This document shows positions 4,300 through 29,283 of a stretch of DNA of 33,495 nt, one piece after another. Within the stretch, counting starts at the first letter, position 1; every line of letters starts with the position of its first letter. The position numbers and the translations under genes were made by a program. Source of the DNA: Nitrosopumilales archaeon (lineage in GTDB: Archaea > Thermoproteota > Nitrososphaeria > Nitrososphaerales > Nitrosopumilaceae). Under the pieces are notes generated by a model. That model had not been told where the DNA came from. It did no database searches and saw nothing but the letters and a program-made list of their open reading frames with translations. The stretch lies in contig JAEHKU010000008.1 of NCBI GenBank assembly GCA_016838825.1, positions 1-33,495 of the forward strand, given 5' to 3'.

Positions 4300-6066
4300 A
4301 TGGTAGAAGCTATAATTTCACGTATCTCTGGCCCGGTTGTTGTAGCTAAAGGTCTAGGAGGCGCACAAATGTTCGATGTTGTTCGTATTGGAGAATTAGG
4401 TCTTGTGGGAGAAATAATTCGTCTAGAAGGTAATTCCGCTATGGTTCAAGTTTACGAGGATACTACAGGATTGAAACCTGGAGAAAAAGTAATCAACACA
4501 AAACGACCACTTTCTTTGCAGCTTGGACCAGGACTCTTGAAGTCAATTTATGATGGCATTCAGAGACCATTAGATATTTTAAGAGAGCAAGGCGGGGACT
4601 TCATTACTAGAGGAAGTGTTGTTCCAGCTTTAGATGAAAAGAAAAAATGGGACTTTGTTCCGATCAAGAAAAAAGGTGAAAATGTATCTCCAGGTGAAAT
4701 CATTGGTGAAGTTCAGGAAACTCCAATAATAAAGCACAAAATAATGATCCCACATAATGTTAATGGCGAACTAACAGAAATTACTGAAGGCGAATATACT
4801 GTCAATGAAAATGTGGCAGCTGTGAAAACAAATAGTGCTATTACTGATATTGGTTTATCAAGTTGGTGGACTGTTCGAATACCAAGACCAGTTGCACGTA
4901 AGCTACCACCAGAAGAACCATTGATTACAGGCCAACGTATTCTGGATACATTTTTCCCAATTGCAAAAGGTGGAACCGCTGCAATACCAGGTCCTTTTGG
5001 AAGTGGAAAAACGGTAATTCAACAACAGCTCGCAAAGTGGGCAGACAGTGAGATTATAGTCTACGTTGGATGTGGTGAAAGAGGAAACGAGATGTGCGAA
5101 GTTCTTTCAACGTTTCCAAAACTAGAAGATCCAAAGTCAAAACGTCCACTGATGGAACGTACAATTCTAGTTGCTAACACATCCAACATGCCGGTTGCAG
5201 CAAGAGAAGCAAGTATCTACACCGGCATTACAATGGGAGAGTATTATCGCGATATGGGATATGGAGTAGCAATGATGGCAGATAGCACGTCTAGATGGGC
5301 TGAAGCGCTTCGAGAAATCTCAGGAAGATTAGAAGAAATGCCAGGTGAAGAAGGATATCCAGCATATCTAGGAAGAAGACTAGCAGAATTTTATGAACGA
5401 GGAGGAAAAGTCATAACAATCTCTCCAGATAAAAGGGAAGGTTCTCTATCTATAGTGGGAGCAGTTTCTCCACCTGGTGGAGACTTTTCAGAACCAGTTT
5501 CACAAAACACGTTAAGGGTTACACGAGTATTTTGGGCACTGGATGCAAGTCTAGCTTCGAGAAGACACTTTCCATCTATCAATTGGTTGACAAGTTATTC
5601 TCTATATGTTGATGGTATGTCAGATTGGTACAAAGATAATGTTTCCAAAGAATGGATTGAACAAAGAAAAGAAGCACTAGAAATTTTACAAAAAGAAGCA
5701 GAATTACAAGAAATTGTTCAGCTAGTTGGATATGATGCGTTACCAGAACCAGAAAAAGGTATTTTGGATATTGCTCGCTCTATTCGGGAAGACTACCTTC
5801 AGCAAAGTGCATATGATGAGGTCGATACTTACACATCAATTAAAAAACAAAACACTATGCTTTCTGTAATTTTAGAATTTGGTAGAATGGGAGCTGATGC
5901 AATAAAGAAGGGAATTCCTTCCTCGAAAGTAAGTGAAATTGCTGCAAGAAGAATGTTATCAAAAATAAAATGGACAAAAGAAGATCAAGTAGAACAGCTA
6001 GTTAAAGAAATTAAGGCTAACATGAAACTACAGTTTGATAGCCTGTTAAAGGAGGCGTCTGACTAG
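4300..6066 (+). CDS. atpA: V/A-type ATPase catalytic subunit A
   Basis: This is the catalytic nucleotide-binding subunit, 588 residues. The Walker A loop GPFGSGKT is at residues 231-238, preceded by the A-subunit-specific bulge region (about 110-185, the non-homologous insert absent from B). Other motifs are GCGERGNEM, the Walker B region [20 protein letters not shown] and LEEMPGEEGYPAYL. I chose the ATG at 4300 because the product then begins MVEAIISRISGPVVVA, as in the family; the frame stays open upstream into the F gene but that extension has no homology. The stop abuts the ATG of the second B gene, and an AAAGGAGG ribosome-binding site for B lies inside its last codons. Confidence 0.96.
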   Translation: MVEAIISRISGPVVVAKGLGGAQMFDVVRIGELGLVGEIIRLEGNSAMVQVYEDTTGLKPGEKVINTKRPLSLQLGPGLLKSIYDGIQRPLDILREQGGDFITRGSVVPALDEKKKWDFVPIKKKGENVSPGEIIGEVQETPIIKHKIMIPHNVNGELTEITEGEYTVNENVAAVKTNSAITDIGLSSWWTVRIPRPVARKLPPEEPLITGQRILDTFFPIAKGGTAAIPGPFGSGKTVIQQQLAKWADSEIIVYVGCGERGNEMCEVLSTFPKLEDPKSKRPLMERTILVANTSNMPVAAREASIYTGITMGEYYRDMGYGVAMMADSTSRWAEALREISGRLEEMPGEEGYPAYLGRRLAEFYERGGKVITISPDKREGSLSIVGAVSPPGGDFSEPVSQNTLRVTRVFWALDASLASRRHFPSINWLTSYSLYVDGMSDWYKDNVSKEWIEQRKEALEILQKEAELQEIVQLVGYDALPEPEKGILDIARSIREDYLQQSAYDEVDTYTSIKKQNTMLSVILEFGRMGADAIKKGIPSSKVSEIAARRMLSKIKWTKEDQVEQLVKEIKANMKLQFDSLLKEASD

Positions 6067-23052: not shown

Positions 23053-23156
23053 CGGCAGCTTTTCTAAATGGATCAAAATAATACAAAACTGATCAAATTT
23101 TATCATTAAATGTCTAGTCATAAATTTTAAGTACCCATCATCATTTAGATTTGGAT

Positions 23157-25253
23157 ATGGAACGAGGCGAGGAAGTACTAGCGGAGCCTTTACGCGGAAA
23201 TATTTTACAATCTACATCAAGGCGTGTAAGAATGATCTTTTCTGTTATGGCAAGTCCAAATAGAATAGATATACTACGTATTTTGAATTCAAAAGGACCT
23301 TTAACCTATTCAGAATTAAAGTCCTTAGCGGGTTTTAAGTCAAAAAAAGAGAGTGGAAAATTCGCATATCATCTAAGAAAACTACTAAGGCAGTCTCTGG
23401 TAGCACTAAACAAGTCTGAAAGGAGGTATACGATCACAAATCTAGGAAAACTTGTTCTAAGTCTTGCAAGGCAGATCGAAGAGAGATCTATAATTGAAAG
23501 TGGAAAGATGTATGTGCGAACCTCACATGAATCAATTGAGGAGTTTAACTCTCAAAAAATAATTCAATCCCTTGTCCGAGAGGGTAGTCTTCCATTAGAA
23601 CTTGCCCAAAAGATTACCGAGGAAGTAGAAAATCGCATATACAAGTACCAAACCACTTATCTGACCGGATCTTTGATACGCGAAATGGTCAATTCTGTCC
23701 TATTAGAACATGGCCATGAGGAATATAGGCATAAATTGGCCAGACTTGGCCTCCCTGTCTACGATGTTCACGAGATGATTACGAACGTCGATATGACTGA
23801 TAGTGGTGTAGAAGGAATTCTAACCAAGGCGGGTCAGACCATAATTGGCGAGCACCTTGTTTTAAATACTCTCCCGAAAGATATAGCAGATTTCTATCTT
23901 TCAGGTGATATTCACATAACAAATCCGGGAACATGGTCTCTTTTGGTCGATACGATGTTTGTAGACCTGAAAGAGCTGATTGAAGATGGAGTAAATTTAC
24001 GTGGAAAGTTATTAGGAATAACAAGAATATCTTCTGTAAAGACCCTGGATAATCTTACTTCCGCGATATCATTGATAACATCTTTGCTATCAAAAGAGGC
24101 CTCCCAAGAGGTAATTATTGATGGGTTAGTACCACTTTTACAAAAATATTCAAAAAATCTGTCAGATTTAGAAGAAAAACTGGTCAATGCTTTCGGAACT
24201 GCTATCATATCAAGGCACGGTAAAAGCTCCACTTTAGTTTCATTCAGAATTCCTATTGCAAGTGATCAAAAAACAGTAAAAGCTGTTCTTTCAGCGTACA
24301 AAAAATATACCAAATCAACACCTATCCCACAAATTGGACTTGTAATTGACTATGAAAAGGGCAAAGTCAGTGATTTCTCTGAGATCCTTTCAGAAATAAT
24401 TGCGCTGGGAGGAGTAATCATCTTTTCCAAGGGAATTAGATCTAATAATGGATTACGTCGTTCTGAGAAAGAGGCTACTAGTTCCTCCTCAATAAAATTA
24501 CAGTCACTATCAATAAATCTTCCAAGACTAGCATTTGAGTCAAACAAGGATGAGACATACTTTAGAGCACGACTAGCACTTTTGATGAAACCAGCACTGG
24601 CTGCTATGTCCCTTAGAAGAAAAGACGTATCTGATCTCACTAGACGTGGATTGAGTCCAATTCTTGCCGGCAATACTCAGTTTATGCAAAAAAAATCTAT
24701 TGCACTTGTTGTTAATCTTGTAGGATTAAAGGAAGCGGTATATGCCATTCTTGGACATAAAGAAAATAAGGAAGGAAAGGAGATTCTCTTCAAAGTATTA
24801 GAGACAGCTGTAGAGGTCGCAGCTAAAAAGGGAAAGGAGCTTGGAGATCCTGTTACAATAACTATGATAGAAAGTGATGCTACATCAAGATTTGCCTCTT
24901 TGGATGGTGAAAAATATGGCAAAATGTCTGTCCTTCGGTCTATCAAAGGTGAATCTTACTCACAAGGATTAGTATTTGATGCCCATGAGATCGAAGAAAT
25001 GAATTCTAAAAGTGAAAAGATTGTTGAATGCAACAAGATGACTAAGATATTAAATGGTGGACTTTTGGTTCAACTAAAGATGCCAGATGGATCAAATCCC
25101 TTACAAATAAAGAATACTATAGAAAAGGCTTCTGATATTTTCGACTCCTTTAAACCAATTAAAAAAATTTCTATTTGTGGTAACTGTGGGCTAAAGGATG
25201 AAAAACTCCAAGAAAAGTGCCCATCCTGTAAATCTCCTTACATAATAACCTAG
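23157..25253 (+). CDS. Winged-helix/ATP-cone protein with inactive class III ribonucleotide reductase-like body
   Basis: The 698-residue product (ATG 23157; a TTG at 23151 would add two residues) has, in order, an ArsR-like winged helix (about 18-108; SPNRIDILRILNSKGPLTYSE), an ATP-cone (about 115-205; VRTSHESIEEFNSQKIIQSL to the DVHEMI segment), a long region resembling anaerobic reductase NrdD (about 210-660; NTLPKDIADFYLSGDIHITNPG) and a C-terminal C4 zinc ribbon like that of NrdD (ICGNCG...CPSCK). The catalytic cysteines expected in the body are missing: only one other cysteine exists. The glycyl-radical loop that should follow the zinc ribbon is absent too, so it cannot be a reductase. 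It sits 230 bases upstream of nrdJ. I infer a nucleotide-sensing transcription regulator. A TATA-like ATTTTAAG near 23124-23131 fits the ATG. Confidence 0.85.
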   Translation: MERGEEVLAEPLRGNILQSTSRRVRMIFSVMASPNRIDILRILNSKGPLTYSELKSLAGFKSKKESGKFAYHLRKLLRQSLVALNKSERRYTITNLGKLVLSLARQIEERSIIESGKMYVRTSHESIEEFNSQKIIQSLVREGSLPLELAQKITEEVENRIYKYQTTYLTGSLIREMVNSVLLEHGHEEYRHKLARLGLPVYDVHEMITNVDMTDSGVEGILTKAGQTIIGEHLVLNTLPKDIADFYLSGDIHITNPGTWSLLVDTMFVDLKELIEDGVNLRGKLLGITRISSVKTLDNLTSAISLITSLLSKEASQEVIIDGLVPLLQKYSKNLSDLEEKLVNAFGTAIISRHGKSSTLVSFRIPIASDQKTVKAVLSAYKKYTKSTPIPQIGLVIDYEKGKVSDFSEILSEIIALGGVIIFSKGIRSNNGLRRSEKEATSSSSIKLQSLSINLPRLAFESNKDETYFRARLALLMKPALAAMSLRRKDVSDLTRRGLSPILAGNTQFMQKKSIALVVNLVGLKEAVYAILGHKENKEGKEILFKVLETAVEVAAKKGKELGDPVTITMIESDATSRFASLDGEKYGKMSVLRSIKGESYSQGLVFDAHEIEEMNSKSEKIVECNKMTKILNGGLLVQLKMPDGSNPLQIKNTIEKASDIFDSFKPIKKISICGNCGLKDEKLQEKCPSCKSPYIIT

Positions 25254-25353: not shown

Positions 25354-25384
25354 TTGATAATGAAACAACTAATGTTGATAATGA
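25354..25384. promoter_or_regulatory. Two 10-base direct repeats 21 bases apart upstream of nrdJ
   Basis: TTGATAATGA occurs at 25354-25363 and again at 25375-25384. Start-to-start distance is 21 bases, two turns of B-DNA, so both copies face the same side of the helix. A related 8-mer, CTAATGTT, overlaps the second copy (25369-25376) and recurs 42 bases later (25411-25418), again a multiple of 21. They stand about 100-130 bases before nrdJ and upstream of its likely TATA element (CTTTATTAT, 25442-25450). They are candidate binding sites for the adjacent winged-helix/ATP-cone protein; that is inference. The rest of this 230-base gap is AT-rich without a credible gene. Confidence 0.5.
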
Positions 25385-25471
25385 TCTAGTCAACCAAATT
25401 GAATCGAAGTCTAATGTTAGAGAATTTTTTTTCATCTGAAACTTTATTATCCTAATGCATCTTACAATTTT

Positions 25472-25480
25472 GGGGAGAGG
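25472..25480 (+). promoter_or_regulatory. Ribosome-binding site of nrdJ
   Basis: GGGGAGAGG ends 3 bases before the ATG at 25484. A clear purine-rich site like this is uncommon among the first genes of transcripts here, most of which look leaderless, and it settles the nrdJ start. Confidence 0.55.
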
Positions 25481-25483
25481 CAT

Positions 25484-28138
25484 ATGAGCGATTTTTCACA
25501 AATAGAGAGTTCTATCATTGATGTTAGAAAGCGTGATGGAAGGATCACAAATTTTAAAAAAGATAAAATTTCAAATGCTGTATTTAAGGCATTAGAGGCA
25601 ACTGGCAAAATTGATCGTGAAATTGCTGATGAATTAGCTAGCGCTGTAGTTTCTAAGCTCGTGGAACAAGGATTTTCGGCATCAAATCCACCAAGTGTAG
25701 AAGATATCCAAGATATGGTTGAATCAACTCTCATAGACAAGGGATATGGTGACATAGCTAAAGCATACATCCTGTATAGACACGAACGAAGAAAGCTACG
25801 TGATGCAAAAATGAAGGTTCTTAATACAAAGTCGCTTGATGACGTAGCAAAAAAATTTGATCTGAATAGCCTTAGGATTTTGGCCTCAAGATACTTGATG
25901 CGTGATTCCAAAGGTTCGATTATTGAAAGCCCAAGTGAAATGTTCGAGAGAGTAGCAATTTTGGTGGCCCTTGCTGATCTTCTAAGAGATAATACTGTTT
26001 TTGAACGAGATGGCCATATTTCACAAGACATAGAAGAGGCTAGGAAATATTTTGATAAACTAGATGATTTTAATTACAAGTTCAAAATAGGCAGTTACTA
26101 TCTCAATAAGTGGCATTTTAGATCACTCATTAACCAATACCTTAATCTTGCAAATCAAGGCCAGATGAAGGTAGGCTTTAAGCAATTTCTAACTATGCTA
26201 GCAGCAAAGGAATTCGATGGTTATGCAGAAAGAATCTCAGAATATCTTAATTTAATGACCTCGCAAGACTTTCTTCCTAACTCTCCTACTATGATGAATG
26301 CTGGTGGAAGATTAGGCCAACTTTCTGCATGTTTTGTACTTGATATGCCTGACGATATGGGGAGCATAATGAAGTCATCCTCTGATGCAGCCTTGATTTT
26401 CAAGTCAGGAGGTGGAGTTGGAATAAACTATTCTACTTTAAGACCGGAAGGAGAAATGGTTGGCTCCACGTCAGGAGTAGCATCAGGCCCTGTTTCATTT
26501 ATGAACATAATAAACACTGTAACCGAGGTTGTCAAACAAGGAGGTAAACGTAGAGGAGCAAATATGGGAATAATGGAAGTATGGCACCCTGACATAGAGA
26601 AATTTATCACAGCAAAGACAGAACCAGGAGTGCTAGAAAACTTTAACGTAAGTGTAGGTATTTGGGAAGATTTCTGGAACCATCTAGTTAATTCAGAAGA
26701 TGGAAAATACATCTTACGTGATCCACGTGACAGATCTGCTAGACGTGAAGTAAGTGCACACCAGTTAATTGATCTAATTGCTCTTTCTGCTTGGAAAAGT
26801 GCGGAGCCTGGTCTAATCTTCTTTGATCTTATCAACAAATACAATGTGTTTGCAAAAGCACGTGGCGAACCTTTACGTGCTACAAATCCTTGTGGAGAAC
26901 AGAGTCTATACCCATATGAATCGTGTAATCTTGGTTCAATTAATCTTGCAAATCTTGTTAAAAGACAAGCTGATGGACAATACGAATTTGATTGGCAAAG
27001 ATATGAGGAAGTAATTCGAAAGACCACAAGATTTTTGGATGATATCATAGATATGAACACTTATCCAATTTCTGAGATAGACAAAGCTTCTAGAGATTCA
27101 CGTAGAATAGGACTTGGAGTTATGGGCGTAGCTGATTTACTCTACAAACTTAGAATTCCATACAATTCAAAAGAAGGATATGAATTTCAATCCAAGCTAG
27201 CAGAAGCACTGACGTATTACTCTATGGAAGAAAGCACTGCTCTGGCAAAAACTAGAGGTGAATTTCCACTAAATCCTAAGACAGAATATCCAGAGAAAAA
27301 GATTCCTATAGCTGGATATTATGAAACACCAAAGGACGAACACTACTACGATTGGGATGCATTAATCTCAAAGATCCAAAAATACGGCATTAGAAATGTA
27401 CTAACGACTACTATTGCTCCAACAGGAACTCTTTCTATGATTGCTGATTGTTCAAACGGAATGGAACCAACGTTTGCACTTGTTTTTGAAAAGAGAGTAA
27501 CAGTTGGTAGATTCTTCTATACTAACAAAATATTTGAATCCGTTTTGAAAGAATATGGTTTGTATAATGATGAGATTCTAAGAAAGATTGCTGATAACTA
27601 TGGCTCACTAAAAGGCATGCCAGAAATTCCAGAGTGGATGCAGAAGATATTTGTCACTGCTATGGATATCCATTGGTCTGATCATCTGATGGCGCAAGCT
27701 GTATGGCAGAAATGGATTGGAAATGCAATAGCAAAAACAATCAACATGCCGCATGACGTGACACCTGATGATGTAAAAGCATCATATCTATTAGCACATG
27801 AACTTGGTCTCAAAGGAATTACTGTATACAGAGATGGTTCGCGTCATAAACAAGTTTTGCATATGATAAGTGAGAATGCAGAAAAAACTTTCCAGGTAAC
27901 TCCTAACACATTTGTAACTGATTACATTACTAAGAATATTACAAACTCATACGTAATGAGTCAAATTAAGAATGCATTAAGATTGAAAATTCCAGAAATA
28001 ATACAAACACAAGGTCAAGCACCAACAGAAAAGGAATTAGAAGAGAGACTGTGTCCTAGCTGTAAAAGTGACTTAGTCTTTGCAGAAGGTTGCAGTACTT
28101 GTATAGAATGTGGGTATAGCGGTTGTACTGGCGCTTAG
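25484..28138 (+). CDS. nrdJ: Cobalamin-dependent (class II) ribonucleotide reductase
   Basis: NrdJ reduces ribonucleotides to deoxyribonucleotides using adenosylcobalamin. The 884-residue product begins with an ATP-cone (about 12-105), the allosteric site for overall activity. The catalytic barrel has the N468-C470-E472 triad (NPCGE; C470 is the thiyl-radical residue), with redox partner C283 in LSACFVLD and C481 eleven residues after C470, as in Thermotoga NrdJ. GGVGINYSTLRPEGEMVGST is the glycine-rich effector/substrate region, and PTGTLSMIADCSNGMEP is characteristic. The C-terminal CPSCKSDLVF...CSTCIECGYSGC tail carries redox or zinc cysteines. Oxygen-independent, B12-based dNTP synthesis fits cobalamin-producing ammonia oxidizers. 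A putative regulator lies just upstream. Confidence 0.97.
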   Translation: MSDFSQIESSIIDVRKRDGRITNFKKDKISNAVFKALEATGKIDREIADELASAVVSKLVEQGFSASNPPSVEDIQDMVESTLIDKGYGDIAKAYILYRHERRKLRDAKMKVLNTKSLDDVAKKFDLNSLRILASRYLMRDSKGSIIESPSEMFERVAILVALADLLRDNTVFERDGHISQDIEEARKYFDKLDDFNYKFKIGSYYLNKWHFRSLINQYLNLANQGQMKVGFKQFLTMLAAKEFDGYAERISEYLNLMTSQDFLPNSPTMMNAGGRLGQLSACFVLDMPDDMGSIMKSSSDAALIFKSGGGVGINYSTLRPEGEMVGSTSGVASGPVSFMNIINTVTEVVKQGGKRRGANMGIMEVWHPDIEKFITAKTEPGVLENFNVSVGIWEDFWNHLVNSEDGKYILRDPRDRSARREVSAHQLIDLIALSAWKSAEPGLIFFDLINKYNVFAKARGEPLRATNPCGEQSLYPYESCNLGSINLANLVKRQADGQYEFDWQRYEEVIRKTTRFLDDIIDMNTYPISEIDKASRDSRRIGLGVMGVADLLYKLRIPYNSKEGYEFQSKLAEALTYYSMEESTALAKTRGEFPLNPKTEYPEKKIPIAGYYETPKDEHYYDWDALISKIQKYGIRNVLTTTIAPTGTLSMIADCSNGMEPTFALVFEKRVTVGRFFYTNKIFESVLKEYGLYNDEILRKIADNYGSLKGMPEIPEWMQKIFVTAMDIHWSDHLMAQAVWQKWIGNAIAKTINMPHDVTPDDVKASYLLAHELGLKGITVYRDGSRHKQVLHMISENAEKTFQVTPNTFVTDYITKNITNSYVMSQIKNALRLKIPEIIQTQGQAPTEKELEERLCPSCKSDLVFAEGCSTCIECGYSGCTGA

Positions 28139-28170: not shown

Positions 28171-29283
28171 GTGCAAATCCTATTGAATGCTAGAATAGTA
28201 AGTGGTGTAATTGCAGCAGGCGTGATTGCAGTAATCATTGTAGCATTTTTTTCACAAGATAGTTTGCAACCTCAACCAACTATACAACACGATGAAAAAC
28301 TTGGTCTTGTTGTACTTAGTCCAACTAAAATAACAACACTTCCCGAGCTAAAGCAAGCGTATGAACAAGCAGCGTCTACAGGAATTGGCAGAAGCAATGT
28401 CTATCTTTTCTGGAATTTATTGGAACCCGAACAAGGTCAATACAATTGGGAACATTCTGATGTTTTAATGAGTATGAATAAACAAAACGACCTCAAAGTC
28501 ACGTTATTCTTTTCAATAATAAATAGTAGAACGCTAGGACCATTTCCAGAATGGATAGGAAAATCTAGTTTTGATAATCTAGAAGAAAAAACAATCACTG
28601 TACTCGATAACATCCTGTCAAGGTACGACATTATAGATTACGTGATAATTGGCGGAGAAGTTGATGCATATTTTCGTGAAAACGAATATGATGTTCAAAA
28701 GTATAATAAATTTTTTACAAATGTATACGATGTTCTAAAGGAAAAATATAGTAATGTAAAATTTGGAAACTCATTTTCACTTCATGGTATAATACATAAC
28801 AGTCCAGAGGATTTGAGTACGACTCTTGATTTAGGAGATTTTGTAGGTTTTACATATTTTCCAGTCGATAGATTAAATGATATTGTTGATACACCTATTG
28901 ATGCTGCTAGAAATCTTGAAAAGATCATTGACCTAGCAGATGGAAAAAAAGTAGCTATTATGGAAATTAGTTGGAGTACGGCGGAATCAGTTGGTGGAAG
29001 CGAAGAAGGACAGGTAGAATTTATGAAATTAGCATACGATTTCTATAGGGATAATGAATCTGATTTTGAATTCTTTACTTGGTTTAGACAATATGACAGA
29101 CCTGAGGGAAGCTGTATTGATGATCTAAACAAAGAACTAGGTCAAGTCACCTTGGGAGGAAATGAGTTTGTATTACAACGCGTTGCAGATTACATATGTA
29201 ACTCAGGATTAATTGATACTGATGGAAACCCAAAGGTTGGTTGGGAAGAAATGAAAAAACAAATACAGTTTGGTTCTTCATAA
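28171..29283 (+). CDS. Membrane-anchored or secreted glycosidase-like TIM-barrel protein
   Basis: The 370-residue product has an N-terminal hydrophobic segment (about 8-27) and a barrel-like domain. FWNLLEPEQGQYNWE resembles the start of clan GH-A glycosidases such as GH42 and GH53. Candidate acid/base E163 in IIGGEVDAYF and nucleophile E275 in AIMEISWST are 112 residues apart, as expected for the ends of strands 4 and 7. The usual NE pair before the acid/base is GE here, so the activity is uncertain. The start is GTG 28171; a TTG at 28183 is also possible. It follows nrdJ after 32 bases but with no functional link that I can see. It is convergent with the tRNA gene. Confidence 0.75.
   Translation: MQILLNARIVSGVIAAGVIAVIIVAFFSQDSLQPQPTIQHDEKLGLVVLSPTKITTLPELKQAYEQAASTGIGRSNVYLFWNLLEPEQGQYNWEHSDVLMSMNKQNDLKVTLFFSIINSRTLGPFPEWIGKSSFDNLEEKTITVLDNILSRYDIIDYVIIGGEVDAYFRENEYDVQKYNKFFTNVYDVLKEKYSNVKFGNSFSLHGIIHNSPEDLSTTLDLGDFVGFTYFPVDRLNDIVDTPIDAARNLEKIIDLADGKKVAIMEISWSTAESVGGSEEGQVEFMKLAYDFYRDNESDFEFFTWFRQYDRPEGSCIDDLNKELGQVTLGGNEFVLQRVADYICNSGLIDTDGNPKVGWEEMKKQIQFGSS

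Follow-up and report, generated by a model that had tools for sequence, protein, structure and literature searches.

How transcription of the ribonucleotide reductase (RNR) genes of archaea follows the nucleotide pools is a question on which we found no description in openly searchable papers, subscription papers lying outside the search. The locus studied here belongs to a stretch of 33,495 nucleotides from a Nitrosopumilales archaeon (the window), and poses that question for nrdJ. A first-pass annotation had drawn attention to helically phased direct repeats upstream of this gene, of the kind expected for an oligomeric regulator, and had named the adjacent protein as their candidate binder. 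Two things have to be decided, namely which sequence in the interval is the likely operator and which protein would bind it. The features concerned are:

23151–25253, + strand: candidate regulator, 700 aa; its start may be the ATG at 23157
25354–25363, + strand: TTGATAATGA, copy 1, as first reported; without conservation in relatives
25369–25376, + strand: CTAATGTT, copy 1, as first reported
25375–25384, + strand: TTGATAATGA, copy 2, 21 bp after copy 1; occupies the slot of the E1 palindrome of relatives
25387–25408, + strand: E2 box TAGTCAACCAAATTGAATCGAA, operator candidate; inverted-repeat core TCAA-N5-TTGA at 25390–25402
25411–25418, + strand: CTAATGTT, copy 2, 42 bp after copy 1; between E2 and the TATA-like element
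25442–25449, + strand: TATA-like element CTTTATTA, assigned from sequence; hexamer 44 bp from the TTGA of E2
25472–25477, + strand: GGGGAG, likely ribosome-binding site of nrdJ, conserved in relatives
25484–28138, + strand: nrdJ, adenosylcobalamin-dependent (class II) ribonucleotide reductase with an N-terminal ATP-cone

The direct repeats upstream of nrdJ

The repeats are present as first described, with TTGATAATGA occurring twice at a 21-base period (25354 and 25375) and CTAATGTT recurring 42 bases on (25369 and 25411). They lie in an intergenic region of 230 bp that is 77% AT, and nowhere else in the 1.12 Mb genome does the TTGATAATGA pair occur; a search for further pairs gave a sole other match, unrelated and carrying three mismatches. 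When the 230-bp region was shuffled 400 times with its dinucleotides preserved, 8.25% of the shuffles contained two exact copies of a 10-mer within 60 bp, and 1.0% did so when helical phase was also demanded (a repeat distance that is a multiple of 10.5 ± 1). Among the nrdJ upstream regions of relatives, 7 of 162 contain such a repeat, as do 3 of the 43 AT-rich tiles into which the window was sampled.

Lack of conservation in close relatives had been named by the first-pass annotation as an outcome that would speak against the repeats, and at family level TTGATAATGA is not conserved. Across 168 nrdJ upstream sequences of relatives (duplicates included; none from the genus of the window, the nearest sampled NrdJ being 81% identical to that of the window), exact TTGATAATGA is absent, and no pair at the 21-bp spacing appears even when two mismatches are allowed in each copy. 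In a gap-free alignment to 40 relatives, anchored on the E2 box described below, the 60 bp that hold the repeats show 35% identity versus 29% in the shifted controls that served as background. The stretch with the second CTAATGTT copy aligns gap-free to relatives, which have CTAGCTTT in its place. The repeats are weak evidence of function, and the TTGATAATGA pair is probably a lineage quirk, unremarkable as such.

The E2 palindrome and its distance to the TATA-like element

The idea of a phased regulator site in this interval survives in a different form, in that the palindrome E2, and not the named repeats, is phased to the TATA-like element. E2 is a 22-bp palindrome of about 19 bits with the consensus GTGTcAAnAwwaTTGAncyaAA, obtained by alignment and an iterated weight matrix, and it is kept across ammonia-oxidising archaea: of 142 distinct sequences preceding nrdJ, about 103 contain it at 10 bits or more. 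Scored with a matrix built without the window, the single E2 copy of the window reaches 15.3 bits and is the top site of the whole window; in 2000 shuffled versions of the intergenic region this score was never reached. From E2 down to the TATA-like element, identity to 40 relatives is 62%, versus 29% in the background and 35% where the repeats lie. The association with nrdJ is nearly exclusive: of the 37 genomes of one genus, 35 have the 22-base form, essentially once per genome and at nrdJ, and elsewhere in those 37 genomes only scattered three-mismatch matches or a duplicated nrdJ promoter were seen; in the Nitrosopumilus-like genus a longer pattern, E1 with E2, is likewise essentially single and at nrdJ. 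A recognisable E2 is missing from the nrdJ upstream regions of Nitrososphaerales and Cenarchaeum-like genomes, and a scan of loci for a copy before the regulator gene found none. Weak E2 matches near −2900 in some loci were read by eye as probable coding sequence for a zinc-ribbon motif of the preceding gene and were rejected. A search for a riboswitch or other RNA family returned nothing credible, with one sub-threshold snoRNA match (E 0.12). On these alignments the interval appears to harbour a well-supported operator, of which we found no earlier description.

The geometry of the promoter points in the same direction. In 25 non-redundant sequences, with one or two extra overlapping matches set aside, the TTGA of E2 lies 34–35 or 44–45 bp from the TATA-like hexamer (44 in the window), and octamer distances over all sequences are 32–35 and 43–44, barring three automatic miscalls of the TATA (the window and L146, resolved by an unrestricted pattern scan, and L045, counted by eye). 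On the NrdJ tree the spacing states 33 and 43 each imply about six changes, at least four of which are forced by well-supported branches. With the TATA inferred from sequence, the promoter distances differ by whole helical turns, as in a phased upstream operator; if a DNA-bound protein contacts the transcription machinery, spacing would be expected to change repeatedly by one turn and not by half a turn, as is seen here. The literature search returned no promoter map for Nitrosopumilus.

Many relatives carry a second palindrome, E1 (TATGAAnTTCATA), which starts 19 bp before E2 in 36 sequences and, as a variant, 16 bp before E2 in 32 sequences; in the window E1 has no credible score at any offset. 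The repeats may perhaps stand in for E1 there, with one genome to judge by. Many Nitrosopumilus-like genomes (L113–L172) have, by eye, an extra short palindrome, CGATCATCG, tens of bp before E1. In three loci (L049, L052 and L058) the entire E1-E2-TATA promoter is duplicated ∼380 bp upstream (in L052, intergenic at about 4521–4720), and the additional copy is directed towards a conserved stretch of ∼80–100 nt, TCCAGAGGAGT...ACTCCTCTGGA, which is found in 3 of the 37 genomes of the genus, is predicted to form a strong branched hairpin and has no Rfam match. The stretch is possibly a small RNA that shares the nrdJ promoter.

The adjacent candidate regulator

The description of the neighbouring protein as a winged-helix/ATP-cone protein is confirmed by domain matches, which reveal a more unusual architecture: a winged helix (residues 29–103; above cut-off to PF24038 and HTH_20), an ATP-cone (residues 120–192), an NrdD-fold domain that matches NRDD (PF13597), and a zinc ribbon (residues 676–693). 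An AlphaFold model, for which 29 relatives were used, has a mean pLDDT of 74, with low confidence in the winged helix. It matches class III RNRs of the PDB over most of the chain and has the NrdD fold, structural matches including 9d3x (E 7e-21) and 1hk8 (TM 0.67 by target length). The glycyl-radical motif is absent, the chain ending at the zinc ribbon with CPSCKSPYIIT, and no catalytic barrel cysteine is conserved, since among 66 homologues only cysteines 676, 679, 690 and 693, all of the zinc ribbon, are kept. Catalysis by this protein is therefore most unlikely. No NrdG was found above the cut-off in the genome of the window.

Across ammonia-oxidising archaea the winged helix (window 23208–23486) is near-invariant, in contrast to the remainder of the protein, which drifts. 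Mean identity of the winged helix to that of the window is 98% in Nitrosopumilaceae-like and 89% in divergent sequences, and that of the NrdD-like part is 65% and 41%, respectively. Codons at identical residues agree in only 48% and 36% of cases for the same two groups, so that the constraint acts on the protein. By its pattern of substitution the winged helix shows the marks of a strongly selected DNA-binding domain, and its invariance suggests constrained targets beyond nrdJ. In the Nitrosopelagicus-like loci L065, L067, L069, L084 and L111, the regulator is shorter (665–681 aa) and E2 is strongly altered (TTGTGAAATTAATTTACCC); in L084 and L111, the two inspected, the regulator is without a zinc ribbon.

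In each of the 99 loci whose sequence extends far enough, the regulator gene immediately precedes nrdJ. More widely, a homologue of the winged helix and ATP-cone, or of one of these parts, is present in 105 of 151 Thermoproteota genomes. In five further Thermoproteota loci (L199–L203) the homologue is followed by a canonical nrdD with the glycyl-radical motif R-[IV]-TGYY, and in L206 by nrdJ. Adjacency to an RNR gene is not universal outside thaumarchaea, since L199–L204 were selected for it (a second ATP-cone gene close by) and in L205 the 1.9 kb that follow the homologue contain no RNR gene. The gene that follows nrdJ in the window (28171–29283) encodes a product with only weak glycoside-hydrolase matches. 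No NrdR protein (TIGR00244) was matched over the cut-off in the genome of the window and 25 relatives, in which positive controls were detected. The neighbour is an unusual protein that deserves a direct test.

Readings of the locus and comparison with known systems

Our preferred reading, to which we give about an even chance, is that E2, and not the TTGATAATGA pair, is the upstream operator of nrdJ, and that the adjacent dead-NrdD protein is its most likely binder. In this mechanism a dimeric DNA-binding protein would occupy TCAA-N5-TTGA about 44 bp before the TATA, on a helix face fixed relative to it, and about 75 bp before the expected transcription start, where it could contact or recruit TBP/TFB or RNA polymerase. 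The binder would be the adjacent class III RNR paralogue, with catalysis lost and a winged helix carried, and ATP or dATP in its ATP-cone would switch it, tuning nrdJ transcription as NrdR does in bacteria; an NrdD specificity site, perhaps retained, may also read ATP/dATP. What the analysis establishes is E2 itself, its conservation and near-exclusive association with nrdJ, its phased distance to the TATA, the synteny and the dead-NrdD architecture; binding of E2 by the regulator, a nucleotide signal and activation are what we infer. An activator is favoured over a promoter-blocking repressor because E2 lies upstream of the TATA; repression by contact is possible.

The regulator is a plausible binder of E2. 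The winged helix is nearly unchanged where E2 is missing, and this lack of co-variation argues against E2 as the only or main target of the regulator; since the winged helix hardly varies, the comparison lent binding no support. The same observation, together with the lack of an E2 upstream of the regulator gene, is consistent with E2 being a true nrdJ operator that is bound by a different transcription factor, the dead-NrdD protein binding elsewhere or acting as a partner of NrdJ; its winged helix is near-invariant even where E2 is absent or altered. We regard this as rather unlikely, given the unbroken regulator–nrdJ synteny (99/99), the fact that E2 serves one gene only and that this gene adjoins one for a DNA-binding protein, and the homologues beside RNR genes in other Thermoproteota.

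It is improbable that the TTGATAATGA pair is itself the site of the regulator, perhaps as a lineage-specific substitute for the E1 of relatives. Its second copy falls exactly in the E1 slot, a phased repeat of such length arises in only 1% of shuffles and the pair is unique in the genome; against this, neither copy nor pair recurs in the 168 sequences of relatives, the repeat region is near background in its identity to relatives (35% versus 29%), such repeats are not rare in AT-rich DNA once the phase requirement is dropped, and the winged helix is unchanged in relatives that lack the repeats. That the repeats arose by chance or slippage in AT-rich DNA, with the conserved stretch representing an extended core promoter without a specific regulator, would agree with the recurrence of such a repeat in 8.25% of shuffles and with the conservation of the TATA and of the stretch preceding it. 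We give this explanation little credence, as E2 is palindromic, carries about 19 bits, lies 34–45 bp upstream of the TATA, keeps its sequence while the intervening DNA shifts by one turn, and does not occur at other promoters.

If the preferred reading is extended beyond this locus, an RNR paralogue may have become a transcription factor throughout Thermoproteota. In that case a catalytically dead NrdD that carries a winged helix would sense nucleotides through its ATP-cone, and possibly through the NrdD specificity site, control the adjacent RNR of any class and replace NrdR, acting through TCAA-N5-TTGA in Nitrosopumilales. We hold this tentatively, at slightly below even chances. In the openly searchable literature we found neither a winged-helix/ATP-cone regulator nor a regulator of thaumarchaeal RNR. 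With essentially one operator per genome and the candidate regulator beside it, a single protein and a single DNA fragment would suffice to test the proposal. Should the neighbour bind, it would clearly exemplify regulatory exaptation, as an enzyme that became a transcription factor and senses the effectors of its own enzyme family, and the one-turn spacing rule would parallel that of NrdR.

Parts of this arrangement are familiar from other systems. The regulator resembles class III NrdD in its whole-fold match, its PF13597 match and its ATP-cone, and differs from active enzymes in lacking the glycyl-radical motif, in conserving only the zinc-ribbon cysteines and in its added winged helix; unlike in class III NrdD systems, no NrdG activase accompanies it above the cut-off in the genome of the window. 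It shares the winged helix at residues 29–103 with ArsR-like/DUF7347 (PF24038) proteins, but here this domain is fused to an ATP-cone and an NrdD-fold domain and encoded beside RNR genes. NrdR is rare in archaea (PMC9110341); its regulon is marked by two 16-bp boxes spaced by about three helical turns (PMC9110341, PMC12051234), with 15–16 or 25–26 bp between them, corresponding to whole helical turns (PMC12051234). An ATP-cone sensor, RNR target genes of whatever class, palindromic sites and whole-turn spacing are common to NrdR and the system proposed here. In contrast, NrdR binds DNA through a Zn-ribbon domain, where the present protein has a winged helix and a dead NrdD, and the phased distance here runs from a single box with TCAA-N5-TTGA to the TATA and not between paired boxes. 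On the best reading, the regulator would act in the manner of NrdR without being one, as its archaeal analogue.
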